From a virus, in IMG/VR virus record IMGVR_UViG_3300037842_000623, positions 1-22,368 of that record: a stretch of 22,368 bases of DNA; one strand, written 5' to 3'. Below are positions 309 through 15,312 of this stretch, in pieces; within the stretch, counting starts at the first letter, position 1; the number at the start of each line of letters is the position of its first letter. The notes under the pieces were generated by a model. The model did no database searches, was not told the DNA's origin, and saw only the letters and a program-made list of their open reading frames with translations. The position numbers and the translations under genes were made by a program.

Positions 309-396
309 ACACAATGCCATCACAATGCCATCACAATGACGACACTATGTCGTCACAATGATGACACTATAACGTAGTCACAATGATGACACTACA
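309..396. repeat. 11-bp-phased tandem repeat of (A/T)CAC(A/T)ATG
   Basis: An 8-base word related to TCACAATG begins at 309, 320, 331, 342, 353 and 364, exactly 11 bp apart, then after a 3-bp slip at 378 and 389. The larger unit GTCACAATGATGACACTA occurs at 352-369 and 377-394. Spacing of one helical turn puts all copies on the same DNA face, as in cooperative protein-binding sites. The repeat abuts the 3' end of the leftward gene at 392-661. Its function is unknown. Confidence 0.6.
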
Positions 397-661
397 ATTC
401 AACTGATTCTCCACGTCCATCACGACATGCGATACAATCACACTGCTGACGCAATCCGGCATAACATGTGTAACATTTCATCGGACGTGGAGCCCGCGTT
501 ACGGGCCGACTGAAAACACGCAACGCGTCAACGTAAATGGCATGGTGCTTGCGCTCGCGATGCAAGCTTGACGCGTTGCCGCCTTGCGTCACCAGCTTGT
601 CTATTTCTTCCTGTGTTGAAATAACCAGTTCGTGCAACGTCGTTGTCAGTGAGTCTACCAT
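392..661 (-). CDS. Small Cys-rich hypothetical protein (leftward)
   Basis: An 89-residue protein I do not recognise. The N-terminal 25 residues look helical (LHELVISTQEEIDKLV). The C-terminus has five cysteines (about C63, C66, C74, C76, C79) in a CxxC-x7-CxCxxC arrangement that could bind a metal. The start is chosen because GAAGGAAGAA lies about 5 bases before the ATG on the minus strand, and a promoter-like sequence lies about 70 bases upstream (732-760). It is transcribed away from the iteron-like array at 796-1085, so it could be regulated through that array or encode a factor acting on it; that is inference. A second leftward frame starting at 725 overlaps it without an SD site and is less likely. 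Coding status is moderately supported. Confidence 0.5.
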   Translation of the reverse strand: MVDSLTTTLHELVISTQEEIDKLVTQGGNASSLHRERKHHAIYVDALRVFSRPVTRAPRPMKCYTCYAGLRQQCDCIACRDGRGESVEL

Positions 662-731: not shown

Positions 732-760
732 ATTGTACGTTATATATCGTCAATCTTCAA
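732..760 (-). promoter_or_regulatory. Leftward sigma70-like promoter
   Basis: On the minus strand TTGAAG (755-760) and TACAAT (732-737) are separated by 17 bases. The predicted transcript starts near 725, giving a leader of about 64 bases before the ATG at 661. The -10 hexamer is identical to that of the promoter at 4054-4082. The array at 796-1085 lies directly upstream, which suits an activator or repressor site. Confidence 0.5.
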
Positions 761-795: not shown

Positions 796-1085
796 TTGAG
801 ACTGGATCTCAATACTAAATTATCTTCACAATATATCACAATTGATACTCAATCTCAATATCACAATTCTCGCACAATAAATCGATATTGAGACTTAATC
901 TCAATATTCAATATTCTCAAATAAAATCAAAATTGATACAGAATCTCAATATCAATTTTTCTTGCAAGAATTCAATATTGAGACTTAATCTCAATATTAA
1001 ACTATCTTCAAAATAATCACAATTGATACTGAATCTCAATATTGTAATTTTGAATCATTTTTATACTATTGAGACTTAATCTCAA
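796..1085. repeat. Seven-box iteron-like array, 45-46 bp period
   Basis: Seven 17-bp boxes start at 796, 842, 888, 933, 978, 1023 and 1069 (steps 46, 46, 45, 45, 45, 46). They alternate strictly between TTGAGAC-NNN-ATCTCAA (boxes 1, 3, 5, 7; palindromic arms TTGAGA/TCTCAA) and TTGATAC-NNN-ATCTCAA (boxes 2, 4, 6). The spacers after odd boxes resemble one another, so the true unit is about 91 bp carrying two unlike boxes. The surroundings are very AT-rich. Such organisation is typical of replication-initiator iterons, partition sites or operator arrays. Which of these applies cannot be told from sequence; the lack of coding makes a replication origin plausible. Confidence 0.75.
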
Positions 1086-1491: not shown

Positions 1492-1519
1492 TTGTGTCAT
1501 TGCCGATATTAACTATACT
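1492..1519 (+). promoter_or_regulatory. Candidate rightward early promoter
   Basis: TTGTGT (1492-1497), a 16-base spacer and TATACT (1514-1519) lie 43 bases before the first rightward gene, downstream of the operator-like cluster. The -10 matches consensus at 5 of 6 positions; the -35 is weak. Confidence 0.35.
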
Positions 1520-1561
1520 GGGAGACATGAGAAGCAAACAACAAAAAACGAAAGGCGAACA

Positions 1562-1870
1562 ATGAAACTGGCAGAACAATTTGCCAGGAAGATCAAAACG
1601 ATACAATTGCAAGAAATCGTTTTTTTCGAAGATCTTCCGAGAGAATGGCAGAAAGAAGCGGAGTCGAATTTAGGCGACCTGGCAGGGGACGCCAGATTTT
1701 TCATGCCTGGCAAGAACCAGAATCCAGAATCGCATGTCTTGTGGGATTTGACGGAGTGTATGAGAGTGGAATCCAAAGAAATGGACGGAGTGATCGGAAT
1801 CTCCAATGGTAGCGCATTGGCGGTTTGCTTGATTGACGATGAAACAGCCATTACGTGGCTGCTGGGTTAA
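1562..1870 (+). CDS. Hypothetical early protein
   Basis: A 102-residue soluble protein, first gene of the rightward early block. The ATG is preceded by GAAAGG with about 7 bases spacing, the SD form used throughout this region. The N-terminal half is charged and helical (LAEQFARKIK, LPREWQKEAESNLGDL). The C-terminus is hydrophobic with acidic residues (ALAVCLIDDETAITWLLG). No family is recognised and no signal peptide is seen. Its position next to the control region suggests early expression. Confidence 0.75.
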   Translation: MKLAEQFARKIKTIQLQEIVFFEDLPREWQKEAESNLGDLAGDARFFMPGKNQNPESHVLWDLTECMRVESKEMDGVIGISNGSALAVCLIDDETAITWLLG

Positions 1871-5694: not shown

Positions 5695-6620
5695 CCAAAG
5701 CAAAGAAGAAAATGACCAAGCGAAAGATCGGGATTGATACCCACACAAGTAAGCTGACCGTAGAGAATACGGGATTGGTGAGCAAATGCCATACTGCTTC
5801 GGGCTGGAATGTGGAAACCAATTGTGGTACAGAATTTGTGGGTGACGATTGTGTAATTATGCGAGACGACGAATATGATGGAATGAGGAAAGACGAGTTA
5901 TATGAATTGTTTTGCGACTATGTGGAAGGATCGGAAATTTATCATTGTACCTATGTCGATGAATGGCACGCTTATTGGGATATGCCGGGATACATGGATC
6001 GTGGATCGATCTACTCTGGTGAAACGGAAGTCGCAGCGATTGTAGATTTGCTGGAATCCAATGAATCAGAAGAATCAAATATAGATGATTGGTGCATGGC
6101 AGCAATTGAACGATTGGTGCAGATTCACAATGATTCCGAAGATGATAATATCCGGGAAGAATGTCTTTCGGCAATTTGCTGGCATTTACCCAGCGAATCC
6201 GTAGATTTTCGTCCAGAAGTATTGTGCAACAATACAGATTTGATATATTCAGGGGATTGCAATCCGATCGATCATGACGGACGATGGATTGATACGCGGG
6301 ATTGGGCAGAACATGGATATGCTTCCTGCGTAGGAATTTGTAGTTATGACAATTTGATTGACATTGAATTCGGCACAATCAACAAAACAGGAACATTGGC
6401 AGAAATGGCTACATGTTACGGGATTGATGTTGACGAGATCACAATGCACCATAAAATTGATTATGCACATTCTCAATTTGGGGCAGAGAATGGCGACAAT
6501 CCAGAACGATTTACTCGCCTTGATGATTCCGGCTGGTTTCTGGATGACGGGAACGAATTGGTAGCAGAGTCGACGATTGAAGCACGATTGATCGAATTGG
6601 TGAAGGGATTGGCAGAGTAG
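5691..6620 (+). CDS. Large acidic hypothetical protein
   Basis: A 309-residue, strongly acidic protein, the largest of the early cluster, starting at an ATGA overlap with SD AGAAAGGGTAAGAA. The N-terminus is basic (TKAKKKMTKRKIG). The body is rich in Asp, Glu, Trp, Tyr and about a dozen Cys, with repeated short segments such as HCTYVDEWHAYWDMPGY and CSYDNLIDIEFG. It ends IELVKGLAE. The 18 bases encoding LVKGLA recur in the fragment ending at 6974, indicating duplication. Acidic early phage proteins are often host inhibitors or DNA mimics, but nothing specific identifies this one. Confidence 0.7.
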   Translation: MTKAKKKMTKRKIGIDTHTSKLTVENTGLVSKCHTASGWNVETNCGTEFVGDDCVIMRDDEYDGMRKDELYELFCDYVEGSEIYHCTYVDEWHAYWDMPGYMDRGSIYSGETEVAAIVDLLESNESEESNIDDWCMAAIERLVQIHNDSEDDNIREECLSAICWHLPSESVDFRPEVLCNNTDLIYSGDCNPIDHDGRWIDTRDWAEHGYASCVGICSYDNLIDIEFGTINKTGTLAEMATCYGIDVDEITMHHKIDYAHSQFGAENGDNPERFTRLDDSGWFLDDGNELVAESTIEARLIELVKGLAE

Positions 6621-6670
6621 AATGCTGAATCGATGGCGCGAGATCGGCGCGCCAGAGATTGTGAATTCTA
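6618..6670 (+). promoter_or_regulatory. Structured leader element E5
   Basis: Outer stem TAGAAT (6618-6623)/ATTCTA (6665-6670); 5' loop GCTGAATC; inner stem TGGCGCG (6634-6640)/CGCGCCA (6648-6654) with loop AGATCGG; conserved ATTGTGA (6658-6664). The outer stem includes the stop codon TAG of the preceding gene, so terminating ribosomes would cover it. The first base pair of the outer stem is T-A here and A-T in E2 and E4. Confidence 0.75.
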
Positions 6671-8315: not shown

Positions 8316-8417
8316 ATGACCGACAAGACAACACATTTATTTTGTGCAGCATTGACCTGTTCACTTGTCCTCATTCTGTGGGCATCGTTTCAATTACTGA
8401 CAATAACGTTTGAATGA
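8316..8417 (+). CDS. Tiny single-pass membrane protein
   Basis: A 33-residue frame behind GAAAGGTAAAGAATAAG. After MTDKTTH comes a hydrophobic stretch of about 22 residues (LFCAALTCSLVLILWASFQL), a likely membrane helix with a short cytoplasmic N-terminus. The stop overlaps the next gene's ATG (ATGA). Small phage membrane proteins of this kind may modify the host envelope or exclude other phages; nothing specific is shown. Confidence 0.55.
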   Translation: MTDKTTHLFCAALTCSLVLILWASFQLLTITFE

Positions 8418-9175
8418 AAGCACTGAGAATGAAAATTAAAATTAAAGAAAATGCAATGGCTAAGTATTGGAATCCAAAATGCCAAGGACAATATATTCCT
8501 ACCAAGGAAGAAAGAACTCATGCCGATAAGCTGGAAGCCATTCAAGGGATGACGATAGAAGTCAAGACAGATTTTTTGTTCTGCGACCAATACAACACCA
8601 AGCCAATAGAAGGAGTGAGCGACCAAGGTATGCGGATCATGGAAGCCTCTGTGTCGGAAGTGATTGACGATATTCGGGATACGGTAGGCAAATGTCCTTA
8701 TTGTGGACACCATACGCCCGGTAAAATCGACGGCTTCTGTGAGTCTTGTCTGGATTCCTCTTATCTTGACGAGCAAACTATAAAACGCGGTGGTACTCGC
8801 ATTCGACCAGTGGACGCCAAGCAAAACCGGGAAAAATGGGAAGAATTAACGCAGGAAGAATGGGACATGCTGAAACCTCAGTATGTCAAGCGACAGACCA
8901 CAGGCAAAGACAGCCGGAATGCTGAGAAGCTGAGAAAGCAGCGGGCAAGGTTGCATTCTGACCATAAAGCCAAAACAGAAGCACTTGACATTGAACGGGA
9001 CGGTATGATTTGGTTGATGGACAACAACATCAGCGTTGAAAACTGCATCTATTACAGTCACCGAAAGGTATTTTGTTTTGGATGGCGCAACAAGATTAGC
9101 AAGGGAGTTAAGAAAGTACTAGACACCAAATTGCAAGGTTTTCCATTCCAGACAGATTTTAAGGTTGAAAGGTAG
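8414..9175 (+). CDS. Zinc-ribbon hypothetical protein
   Basis: A 253-residue basic protein. The start at 8414 is chosen for its ATGA overlap with the membrane protein; Met 6 (8429) and Met 15 (8456) are alternatives. A zinc ribbon CPYC-x11-CESC (about C94, C97, C109, C112) sits mid-protein. It is followed by a charged helical region (KDSRNAEKLRKQRARLHSDHKAK) and a C-terminal HRKVFCFGWRNKIS with a FPFQTDF ending, a pattern I associate with uncharacterised phage proteins. It is probably a nucleic-acid-associated protein; this is inference. Confidence 0.7.
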   Translation: MKALRMKIKIKENAMAKYWNPKCQGQYIPTKEERTHADKLEAIQGMTIEVKTDFLFCDQYNTKPIEGVSDQGMRIMEASVSEVIDDIRDTVGKCPYCGHHTPGKIDGFCESCLDSSYLDEQTIKRGGTRIRPVDAKQNREKWEELTQEEWDMLKPQYVKRQTTGKDSRNAEKLRKQRARLHSDHKAKTEALDIERDGMIWLMDNNISVENCIYYSHRKVFCFGWRNKISKGVKKVLDTKLQGFPFQTDFKVER

Positions 9176-11967: not shown

Positions 11968-14216
11968 TATGCTTCGAGATCACCGACAATTGTGTAGAAT
12001 TTACCTGTAGTCGCAAATAGTTTCTCGACCTGCAACGGCGGCATACGCATTACATCGCCAGATTCTTCCAGCGCTTGCAAAGCCATCTTGATTGCCATTG
12101 ATGGTCCTCGCTTATCGTTAGCAAAGATTTTCAGTCGTCGCATGTTTGTTATGATGTATTTGAGCGGTAAACTGTACTTCTGATACATTGCAATCGTGAT
12201 CGCTTGCGACTTAGGTTTCGACTCCAAGAATCGTCGTAAGAATTTAACAATTGCGTTGACCTGTTGCTGCTCTGTATTGGTGCCAACTTCACCGTCATCG
12301 AATCTCTTTTTCAGAGTCTCTATGCCGTGTGTGACGAAGTTCTCTGCCCATGTAAAACATTCGGCATCAATAATAGGCGACATTGAATTTTTGCCCACAG
12401 CTAGTAAGGCGGCAACCCGCAGAGTTTTCAAGTGCGCCCTGTTCCACAACTCCGCAGACAACCCCGCATCATTGTTATTGATTTCCTCATCTGCACGGAC
12501 GTCCAAATCGTGACTAAGTTTGGCTGCAACGGAATCAAACGGAATCTCAATCCGTTTTGAGTTTTGTAACAATCCTTGCACCACTGACAACAGGGTAGCA
12601 AGTTTGTTGATTAGTTCGGGCGAAGGTTCGGCGCTCGCTGCATTAGGGTTTGATGGTGGTCGCTTGCCGAGATATTCGACGACGGCAAAACGCGGTAACA
12701 ATCCGCTGGATATCATTGCACCATCGACGTTGTCGTAGAACCAATCCGGTGTTGACTCACCTATCATCGAGAACGCAGGCGAATGCAGAATTCCGATTGT
12801 CTTCTCACTGTCACTATAGGCTGTGGGCATCAATCGGTCTGTTGCGCCGCTCTTTGAATAGAGATCAAGCATGACTTTTTGCAACATGAGATCTGGCGCG
12901 AAATGACCCTCGCACATTGATTTCAGTTTGATCCCAAATTCGCCAAAGATTGACAGCGTTGACAATGACCGTGATTTGCTAAATGCCCGCAGCAATGCTT
13001 GACCTGATGCGAGATCGCCCGGACCTTCGAAGTCGTCAATGTAAGGGCAAACTGTTTGCAATCGAGTATTCAACTTTGAGATACCTTTTGCCATAGCTTC
13101 TTTACCGCGACCTGTGCGAGCCAGCAGCAGCAGATAGAGATTTAGACCGGTTGAACTGACATTGAATGCTCGTCCAGCAATACCTGCCATCAAGCCCAAC
13201 GCACCGACGATTGAAACCTCTTTAATAGGCTTGTGAGAGGCACTATAAAGAAATTCGGCTATGTCACCGGCAAGTCCCGGCGGTGGTGTTAGCGGGCCTG
13301 CCTGCCGGTATAAATGCGATGGTTTCTGAATGATTCCGTTCGTAGGCACCAGAGGTTGCGGTTGAGGCGGAACAAATGTTTCGAAATTGATTTCCGGCAC
13401 AACATTGTCGAAACTTCGCACTATCATATTATTTACATAATCTTGCCTCTTTGCTTTCTTTCGTCGACCTAAACCCGATTGCAAAAACAACCTCTTGATC
13501 TGCTCTTTGTTCTGCGTGTAATAAGCAAGGATATCGATCAATGCGAAGTCGGCGCGTGACTGGTCCCCGAAATGCCAAGTAGTTATGTCACCTTGCCACA
13601 AATCTACAAACTTTTTACCGTTGCTCGCACTTGATGCGATGTTATAGATATCAAGATCGCCATGCTTTTGCGGTCGATCAATGTCATTTGCTGTTGCAGT
13701 CGAGTGATTAAATCCGAGATCTTCGCAAATGTGGTCTATTTTGCCTTGCGCAAATTGGATAGGTGCGTTGTGATACACATTGCCTGTGAACGTCATAAAT
13801 CGTTCGGACGAATACAATTCAAACGGTCCACGACGTCTACCTTTATCGGCTTTCATCTGCGCCTTGACAACAATGTGCAGACCGTTGCCACCCGGCGAAA
13901 TCTCAGAATATGAATCGAGTAACTTTTGGATGTACTCTTGCTTCTGAATTAATGCGGGTTCTGTTGTGTGATCGAGATCAACGATAAGCCACGGATCGTT
14001 CTTGGTAAGAACAAAACCTAAGCCGTCGAAATGCGAAATTGCAGTTACACAAGAATCGAAGGTACACCATGTTTCCGGTCTTCCTACATCTGCAAATGTG
14101 AATGTTCGTGGGTTGTACGGAACTTTGGTCGGCTTGTTGCCGCCTCTGTCTTCATGCCGCCAACACACCCACTGTGCGACCTGTTGCATCTCAACAGGAA
14201 TCCGTGAGTATATCAT
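11964..14216 (-). CDS. Primase-polymerase with helicase-like C-terminus
   Basis: A 750-residue leftward protein. The N-terminus resembles NrS-1-type phage primase-polymerases: WVCWRHEDRGGNKPTKVPYN (16-35), the metal-binding WLIVDLDHT (D80, D82), SPGGNGLHIVVK (H114) and the third acidic site in FELY (about E133). A linker motif DQSRADFALIDILAYY with SGLGRRKK (about 218-256) also fits that group. The C-terminal half has a Walker-A-like LLARTGRGKEA (about 364-374), as in DUF3987-type helicase-related domains. It likely makes primers and may unwind DNA at the origin. Transcribed with the HTH gene, opposite to all other replication genes. The start follows TAGGCGCC, a weak SD. Confidence 0.85.
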   Translation of the reverse strand: MIYSRIPVEMQQVAQWVCWRHEDRGGNKPTKVPYNPRTFTFADVGRPETWCTFDSCVTAISHFDGLGFVLTKNDPWLIVDLDHTTEPALIQKQEYIQKLLDSYSEISPGGNGLHIVVKAQMKADKGRRRGPFELYSSERFMTFTGNVYHNAPIQFAQGKIDHICEDLGFNHSTATANDIDRPQKHGDLDIYNIASSASNGKKFVDLWQGDITTWHFGDQSRADFALIDILAYYTQNKEQIKRLFLQSGLGRRKKAKRQDYVNNMIVRSFDNVVPEINFETFVPPQPQPLVPTNGIIQKPSHLYRQAGPLTPPPGLAGDIAEFLYSASHKPIKEVSIVGALGLMAGIAGRAFNVSSTGLNLYLLLLARTGRGKEAMAKGISKLNTRLQTVCPYIDDFEGPGDLASGQALLRAFSKSRSLSTLSIFGEFGIKLKSMCEGHFAPDLMLQKVMLDLYSKSGATDRLMPTAYSDSEKTIGILHSPAFSMIGESTPDWFYDNVDGAMISSGLLPRFAVVEYLGKRPPSNPNAASAEPSPELINKLATLLSVVQGLLQNSKRIEIPFDSVAAKLSHDLDVRADEEINNNDAGLSAELWNRAHLKTLRVAALLAVGKNSMSPIIDAECFTWAENFVTHGIETLKKRFDDGEVGTNTEQQQVNAIVKFLRRFLESKPKSQAITIAMYQKYSLPLKYIITNMRRLKIFANDKRGPSMAIKMALQALEESGDVMRMPPLQVEKLFATTGKFYTIVGDLEAY

Positions 14217-14225
14217 CCATGGCGC

Positions 14226-14456
14226 CTAGCAATTGGGGGTGTTGGAATCGTCATCCGTAAACAGCGGCTTGTCTGCCAGCAGGTTGTATAATCGTTCGAC
14301 TGCATCTACTCTCGCACCGATCGGCGGATGTTGACTTGTGAGCGTCGTGAGCCATCCGACCGATACACCGATTTTTTCAGAAATTTTGTCCAACGACATT
14401 GGACGCGGGCGATTCCGCAGCAGTTTGATCGTCTCGCTAAGTAAGGTTCGCTGCAT
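14226..14456 (-). CDS. HTH DNA-binding regulator
   Basis: A 76-residue leftward protein starting MQRTLLSETIKLL. ATG 14456 with AAGACAAGGC upstream is chosen because a promoter-like sequence places transcription start near 14491, excluding the in-frame TTG at 14498. Residues about 20-45 (SLDKISEKIGVSVGWLTTLTSQ) form a helix-turn-helix of the XRE-like type common in small phage proteins; a helix ERLYNLL follows. It lies 9 bases before the primase-polymerase gene and beside the divergent control region, so it may regulate both operons. Confidence 0.7.
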   Translation of the reverse strand: MQRTLLSETIKLLRNRPRPMSLDKISEKIGVSVGWLTTLTSQHPPIGARVDAVERLYNLLADKPLFTDDDSNTPNC

Positions 14457-14497
14457 TTGCCTTGTCTTTTCATAGGAAATCAAGTAAAGGGACGCCA

Positions 14498-14525
14498 ATC
14501 ATAACAGATTCTGTGGGCTAGACAA
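14498..14525 (-). promoter_or_regulatory. Leftward promoter for HTH/primase operon
   Basis: On the minus strand TTGTCT (14520-14525), a 16-base spacer and TATGAT (14498-14503), 42 bases before the HTH start. The -10 matches consensus at 5 of 6 positions. Confidence 0.55.
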
Positions 14526-14644: not shown

Positions 14645-15127
14645 ATGACCGGCACATTTCCAACAGCACCGACACCGCTCGCACCAACAGCAGCACCAAC
14701 AGCCACACCAACTGAGAATATCGATTTGGTGATAGGCGAATGGTTTGCGGCATCCGAAGCACTCGCAGCAGCAAAGAAGACCGAAAAGGCTCTACGCGAT
14801 CAGGTGAGCAATTCGCATTTGTGGAACGCTGCAAAAACAACCGGCACGCAAACCTATGACCTTGGCAAAGGTTATGAATTGAAGATGGCTCGCACTGAGA
14901 CAGTGTCAGTCGCCAACAAAGAACATGAGGCAACTCATTGTATTATCAAGCTGCGCAACCTTGGCGAAGGGGCTACCGAACGAGCCAATCGATTGTTTAC
15001 ATTCTCTGCTAGAATGAGTGAAGCGGTTTATAAGGAGTTAACCGCCGAAGAACGAATGATTGTCGATCCAATTATCACCCGTAAGCCGGGTAGCACCAGT
15101 ATTAAACTCAAAGCACCAAAGGAGTGA
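14645..15127 (+). CDS. Hypothetical protein of the recombination operon
   Basis: A 160-residue protein, first gene of the rightward replication operon, SD AAGGGGACAC. The first 25 residues are a low-complexity Thr/Pro/Ala stretch. A long helix ([22 protein letters not shown]) and a mixed C-terminal domain ([24 protein letters not shown]) follow. Helix-containing proteins of this size commonly accompany phage recombination genes, but I cannot name the family. The CsrA start lies 2 bases after its stop. Confidence 0.65.
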
Positions 15128-15129
15128 GT

Positions 15130-15312
15130 ATGCTAGTTTTGTCACGAAAGATTAACCAAAAAATTATAATTAACGATGACATTGTCGTTACAATAGTAAA
15201 TATAAAAGGCGATCAAGTGAAACTTGGCATCAAAGCACCAAGTGACATTACTGTATATCGCGAAGAAGTTTATAAAGCGATCTTAAAGGAAATGGAGGAC
15301 ATAAATAAATGA
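15130..15312 (+). CDS. csrA: CsrA/RsmA-family RNA-binding translational regulator
   Basis: A 60-residue CsrA homologue. ATG 15130 is preferred over GTG 15124 because AAAGGAG sits 7 bases before the ATG. CsrA dimers bind RNA hairpins with a GGA core, often over SD sites, and block or stabilise mRNAs. Residues essential in the family are present: MLVLSRK (L4, R6), a central [12 protein letters not shown] (about 26-37) and ITVYREEVY with R44. Length is normal, so it should be active. It is embedded in the recombination operon, with its stop overlapping the Sak4-like start (ATGA). Its own SD contains AGGA, so autoregulation is possible. CsrA homologues on phages are known but uncommon. Confidence 0.95.

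Follow-up and report, generated by a model that had tools for sequence, protein, structure and literature searches.

Organisation of the control region

The window analysed in this study is the whole stretch of 22,368 bases of a virus record, which is probably a fragment. It contains a non-coding region between divergent ORFs that harbours an array of seven boxes. The features of this region and its borders are as follows.

392-661, minus strand: leftward ORF of 89 aa with a Cys-rich C-terminus, for which no homologue was found
662-1561, no strand: non-coding control region containing the array, between divergent ORFs
732-760, minus strand: leftward sigma-70-like candidate promoter TTGAAG-17-TACAAT (consensus match only)
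796-812, plus strand: Fur-type box 1 (odd), TTGAGACTGGATCTCAA, PSSM score 23.1
842-858, plus strand: Fur-type box 2 (even), TTGATACTCAATCTCAA, PSSM score 20.2
888-904, plus strand: Fur-type box 3 (odd), TTGAGACTTAATCTCAA, PSSM score 26.4
933-949, plus strand: Fur-type box 4 (even), TTGATACAGAATCTCAA, PSSM score 18.9
978-994, plus strand: Fur-type box 5 (odd), TTGAGACTTAATCTCAA, PSSM score 26.4
1023-1039, plus strand: Fur-type box 6 (even), TTGATACTGAATCTCAA, PSSM score 20.2
1069-1085, plus strand: Fur-type box 7 (odd), TTGAGACTTAATCTCAA, PSSM score 26.4
1493-1520, plus strand: promoter-like TTGTGT-16-TATACT upstream of the first early gene, found by eye and below the promoter-tool threshold
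1562-1870, plus strand: first rightward early ORF, 102 aa, no assigned function

The seven boxes, each 17 bp long, start at positions 796, 842, 888, 933, 978, 1023 and 1069, which gives successive steps of 46, 46, 45, 45, 45 and 46 bp over a total extent of 796-1085. All of them fit the exact form TTGA(G/T)AC-NNN-ATCTCAA, where odd boxes (1, 3, 5 and 7) display TTGAGAC and even boxes (2, 4 and 6) TTGATAC. Beyond these seven, neither strand of the 22,368-base record contained the exact box. The array was also distinctly AT-rich, with a GC content of 26% against 45% for the window. The number, size, extent, alternation and steps of the boxes reported in a first-pass annotation were all reproduced, and so was its repeat unit of about 91 bp composed of two boxes: TRF attributed a score of 317 to period 90 versus 187 to period 45, and this preference indicates that the two-box unit is correct. 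The spacers following odd boxes had likewise been described as alike. This held for spacers 1, 3 and 5, which resembled each other more than the other spacers did (the odd/even partition being the best of ten 3+3 splits), but spacer 6 departed from the pattern. The odd/even alternation may simply be the scar of a duplication of the two-box unit.

At 10.5 bp per turn, the steps correspond to 4.29-4.38 helical turns, so that neighbouring boxes are rotated relative to each other, in agreement with the value near 4.3 turns given previously. The earlier description of the boxes as palindromic or near-palindromic needed refinement. Their arms do pair (TTGAGA..TCTCAA in odd boxes, with TTGATA as left arm in even ones), but two invariant bases, C at position 7 and A at position 11, stay unpaired in every box. 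Each box is therefore a directional pseudo-palindrome, and all seven share the same orientation.

The leftward candidate promoter is located 36 bp from box 1 and is directed at the 392-661 gene. On the other side, the TTGAGA of box 7 is a possible -35 element (18 bp, TATTCT; consensus match only). Rightward promoter candidates near the array were weak and the best one lies about 400 bp from box 7, which is too distant for simple occlusion. An array of promoters was considered and rejected: TTGAGA in the boxes yields several -35/-10 matches, but their spacing varies and AT-rich DNA gives many such matches. No RNA family was matched in Rfam, and DNA similarity searches (positions 1-1570 against phages and 600-1570 against plasmids) returned nothing useful.

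Other repeats were recorded in and around the control region. A second array, at 303-394, is made of 11-bp direct repeats (CACAATGCCAT / CACTATGNCGT) that recur once per helical turn; it is situated just beyond the end of the leftward ORF and has an iteron-like look. Half sites TTGTGGG/CCCACAA cluster at 1145-1421 and 1925, including a perfect palindrome (TTGTGGGGCCCCACAA, 1339-1354) and TTGTGGGTATC at 1391 and 1921; close to the early genes, this cluster might serve a different regulator as operator. Finally, GGTATTCTGAAG is exactly repeated at 198-209 and 1091-1102, flanking the control region, with 0.00 occurrences expected by chance.

The box as a Fur-type dyad

When shifted by one position, the boxes read as a 7-1-7 dyad, TGAGACT-T-AATCTCA for odd boxes and TGATACT-N-AATCTCA for even ones, in which the two half sites agree at 6/7 and 5/7 positions, respectively. 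We take this dyad to be of the Fur 7-1-7 kind, in which a single central base separates two 7-bp half sites of inverted orientation. The even-box TGATACT is near the classic TGATAAT half site. Against this reading, the TGAGAC clade variant differs from the E. coli Fur consensus, which it matched at 10-11 of 14 half-site positions by a hand count. The consensus of the viral boxes (see below) was TGAGA(C/A/T)T-N-A(A/G/T)TCTCA, which covers the classic-type TGAGAATNATTCTCA. In the literature, the Fur box is described as a dyad of about 19 bp, GATAATGATAATCATTATC, and Fur as a protein that oligomerises on DNA (PMC3788343). A PSSM derived from bacterial boxes scored the seven window boxes at 18.9-26.4 and the next best site of the window at 10.0, but its core positions were preset by the search pattern, so that only flanks and centre count as independent evidence.

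Occurrence before bacterial iron genes

Bacterial genomes were searched with a two-box pattern, TGAGACNNNNTCTCA-N12-40-TGAKACNNNNTCTCA, which occurred in 108 stretches. These were concentrated in Verrucomicrobiota, Planctomycetota, Holophagae and Marinimicrobia, and a confinement to so few phyla is unlike chance. Some matches were clearly unrelated repeats, namely 52-bp repeats in Bacillaceae and in-frame repeats in Bacteroidales. The intergenic repeats of four Bacillaceae loci (L303, L304, L319 and L322), which contain TGAGAC....CTCTCA boxes and recur every 52 or 104 bp, apparently form an unrelated family.

Pfam analysis of 30 box-facing neighbour proteins at 26 bacterial loci, partly picked by eye and thus not blind, revealed an iron-type gene at 14/26 loci, with the box pair within about 100 bp upstream. 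TonB-dependent receptors were the most frequent (11 loci: L261, L267, L268, L283, L293, L308, L310, L317, L331, L332 and L336), and the others were FeoA (L305), MotA/ExbB (L316 and L310, the latter also displaying a TonB-dependent receptor) and FUR (L298). A Fur-family gene was present inside the 8 kb around the box pair at 7 of the 108 loci; in two of them, L317 and L261, it is next to the TonB-dependent receptor preceded by the boxes. Fur-like proteins near bacterial boxes matched Fur, Irr and PerR in NCBIfam, all below cut-offs. The closest correspondence with the window was found in Marinimicrobia, where both boxes before a TonB receptor (L268) are identical to the 19-mer ATTGAGACTTAATCTCAAT, which represents boxes 3, 5 and 7 with their flanks.

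The reverse approach, starting from 30 Verrucomicrobiota FeoA loci (about 96 kb), uncovered a looser box pattern twice, in both cases 17-18 bp before the FeoA match, while the other 28 loci were devoid of it. The box pair occurred in only 1/195 sampled Verrucomicrobiota genomes, and this rarity indicates that box pairs cover no more than part of the Fur regulon in this phylum. In Verrucomicrobia, genes for DUF6662 proteins were also encountered 25-82 bp downstream of these tandem boxes (L257, L258 and L266), so DUF6662 may belong to an iron regulon there.

The box is not phage-specific. As expected for a Fur-type operator, a 7-1-7 dyad was found together with occurrences of the same site before bacterial iron-uptake genes or fur. 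On the basis of the box pairs preceding bacterial TonB receptors, FeoA, ExbB and FUR, the boxes of the window are read as most likely being Fur-family operators, with iron as the likeliest metal, lying in phage control DNA that separates two divergent blocks of genes. The first-pass annotation had suggested a nucleoprotein switch between the 392-661 gene and the rightward early genes. This is near the reading best supported here, except that the site appears to be a Fur-family operator and not a private phage box.

Occurrence in other viral contigs

A search of viral contigs with 20 exact bases of the box gave no match, and the 14-base form was found in 120 viral stretches. Among these 120 loci, an array finder run as a background control detected arrays in 5, three of which (L013, L054 and L073) carry nearly the window's own box; a finer scan added L036, L040 and L082. 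L054 also displayed extra single boxes. The two-box pattern was more productive, with 83 viral stretches versus 2 for the reversed pattern. Clusters of three to six boxes were present in 62 of the 83 loci, and no such cluster appeared in shuffled sequence. After removal of near-copies, 45 distinct arrays of at least three boxes were retained, mostly in non-coding DNA, with a median step of 38 bp (quartiles 35 and 43) and no preference for a helical phase across arrays (Rayleigh p ~0.28). With its seven boxes, the window array was the longest among those found.

Viral arrays often directly preceded a phage gene of the same direction, at 55 bp in L203 and 57 bp in L195, and in L013/L249 an array is located about 120 bp before the gene for the terminase small subunit. 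One phage contig (L219/L220) displayed four Fur-type box pairs with a uniform 49-bp step, as well as single boxes, between successive small genes, a layout that looks like a phage regulon. Arrays directly before phage genes and the intergenic pairs of L219/L220 favour gene control as the function of these sites.

None of the 10,481 open frames from the viral loci and the window matched Fur at E<1, and no homologues of TonB, FeoA or ExbB were found on the main array-bearing viral loci. With no Fur gene found on these loci or in the window, the binder is probably the host's Fur. Alternatively, the array might be the operator of a phage-encoded, non-Fur protein that shares or borrows Fur specificity. 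The viral genomes were available in part, the window phage through 22 kb, and an HTH protein is indeed encoded beside its primase (14226-14498). Against this, the box is shared by phages in which the genes next to the array look unrelated to those of the window, and it also precedes iron genes in bacteria; furthermore, KL1-type phages possess the conserved HTH gene without having the array. We hold this origin of the binder to be quite unlikely. Regarding the host itself, no cultured relative with a known host was found for the array-bearing phage contigs, and it is assumed that the host of the window phage carries a Fur of this specificity.

The phage and its relatives

The right-hand part of the window encodes a replication module composed of a VRR-NUC nuclease, a primase with an NrS-1-type helix-bundle domain, an HTH protein, CsrA, a Sak4-like annealing protein, an SSB, a methyltransferase, a Cas4-type exonuclease, an SF2 helicase and a DNA polymerase. 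CsrA is a host-type RNA-binding regulator, here phage-encoded within the replication operon (15124-15312, Pfam E 9e-25). The best matches of the module reached about 40-46% identity in Kilunavirus/Septimatrevirus and Nipunavirus phages, and the primase, the helicase and the 8414-9175 protein tie the phage to Kilunavirus, Septimatrevirus, Nipunavirus and Casjensviridae. The first 8 kb showed no DNA-level resemblance to any phage record.

The window's array was absent from all checked relatives among the four taxa cited above, and seven phage genomes with the replication module or its HTH gene were devoid of it (L130, L131 in part, L133 and L176-L179), but similar arrays occur in the other viral contigs described above. 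Two candidates for kin arrays, in Hafnia phage Enc34 (L132) and in viral contig L139, were rejected because their repeats are different sites. Enc34 displays five 28-bp semi-palindromic repeats (CGACCTGTCAGGTTTTTCAAGTAAG, 33248-33448) in a divergent control region, enclosed by a pair of 29-nt inverted repeats resembling two facing promoters. L139, which encodes a relative of the 8414-9175 protein, shows clustered TTGCAAC...GTTGCAA palindromes in a divergent non-coding region (6416-6670). A further viral contig, L174, possesses a large AT-rich non-coding region (13063-13909) with several arrays, one of which alternates 25 and 23 bp.

These comparisons also bear on the replication origin and the partition site proposed in the first-pass annotation. 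For neither was positive evidence obtained, as the box recurs before bacterial iron genes and as dispersed boxes or pairs between phage genes. In the case of an origin, the boxes would be iterons bound by a phage initiator, comparable to the semi-palindromic repeats bound by RepA in a non-coding region of the V. cholerae satellite PLE (PMC7145576). The AT-rich array, the long non-coding region between divergent genes and the neighbouring repeat families, such as the 11-bp repeats, would suit this interpretation. We nevertheless judge it very unlikely: Pfam and PHROGs recognised no initiator among the proteins searched, and related phages have the same primase module without the array. GC skew along the record, including its switch, tracks gene direction and does not decide the matter. 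The recognition sequence of NrS-1-type primases, TTTGGTTA, was discarded as a feature of the control region, its single match being located outside it, near 15.15 kb, with 0.9 expected by chance.

A partition centromere is the least credible of the readings considered and is deemed extremely improbable, despite a period and box size very similar to those of sopC of plasmid F, which is made of twelve 43-bp repeats with 16-bp inverted repeat motifs (PMC6238139). Both are short tandem repeats containing short inverted repeats, but box sequence and genomic setting differ and no ParB was found with the phage array. More generally, neither ParA nor ParB was found among the window proteins searched (part of the ORFs of what is probably a fragment), the replication genes are of lytic type and, once again, the same box precedes bacterial iron genes.

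A model for the array

We consider it fairly probable that the array is a seven-site Fur-family operator bound by host Fur, which would render the flanking phage promoters iron-responsive. According to this model, iron-loaded Fur dimers of the host would start with the odd boxes, the stronger sites, and extend to the weaker even ones as Fur activity rises, giving a protein-coated stretch of 290 bp that separates the leftward promoter from the rightward early operon. The coated array would repress the flanking promoters (activation seems less likely), and these would be released when free iron drops. Fur binding, the host's Fur as binder, the graded filling of strong and weak boxes and the sign of the effect are what we infer from the sites and their setting.

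As the main alternative, the sites could act as a sponge, the array on a multiplying phage genome soaking up host Fur and thereby derepressing host iron uptake. Titration by Fur boxes on a multicopy plasmid is established (Fur titration assay, PMC3145626). The 3-7 boxes of viral arrays, against mostly two in bacterial operators, the lack of iron genes found on array-bearing viral loci and a spacing without helical phase, as for independent sites, are in keeping with such a role. However, many arrays are promoter-like, right before a phage gene of the same direction (L203, L195 and L013/L249), and the pairs at several intergenic places in some phages have the look of gene control. Moreover, Fur is abundant in E. 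coli, so that seven sites would matter only at high copy number. Titration as the function of the array is rated as unlikely, albeit ahead of the phage-encoded binder. Sequence cannot separate the switch from the sponge, and both can hold.

Taking the iron-responsive operator together with this variant, the balance tips slightly towards a more general proposal: several lineages of uncultured phages would carry rows of host-Fur operators as an iron-sensing switch or a Fur sponge, by which infection would be tied to host iron homeostasis or would rewire it. Iron limits growth across much of the ocean and in many lakes. If the proposal is true, phages could make the expression of their genes conditional on host iron status, or could open host iron uptake upon infection, and viral lysis would be linked to iron cycling through a concrete DNA element. 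Pairs of TGAGACNNNNTCTCA 27-55 bp apart also provide a searchable signature, and the element hints at hosts for uncultured phages.

Comparison with known systems

No report of Fur-operator arrays in phages was found in the open literature searched. In bacteria, the array is comparable to the tandem Fur boxes before TonB receptor, feoA and exbB genes, with which it shares box sequence, dyad and flanks, up to the 19-bp identity with L268. Yet bacterial boxes are mostly two in number, whereas the phage array counts seven, is built on a two-box unit of 91 bp and has no adjacent iron gene. Several separate Fur operators along one promoter region are also known from the Helicobacter pylori arsR promoter, where three operators are present and Fur compacts the promoter (PMC5007355). 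There, however, the distances are irregular, the gene is bacterial and compaction was measured.

With respect to phages, GIL01 is controlled by host LexA (PMC4551915). In this case, phage promoters are placed under a host stress regulator, which for the window array is a proposal; the system differs in being LexA/SOS, in a temperate phage and with SOS boxes grouped in a single promoter. The nearest precedent comes from alphaproteobacterial phages, in which host CtrA-binding sites are clustered in intergenic or terminal regions (lytic deferment; PMC9437464). CtrA is a cell-cycle regulator for which both binding and control of phage promoters were demonstrated, whereas the site described here is a putative Fur-family operator with regular spacing. 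In both cases, sites of a host master regulator occur in large numbers in non-coding control DNA and across unrelated phage lineages; in the window, all seven are concentrated within 290 bp of such DNA and none lies elsewhere.
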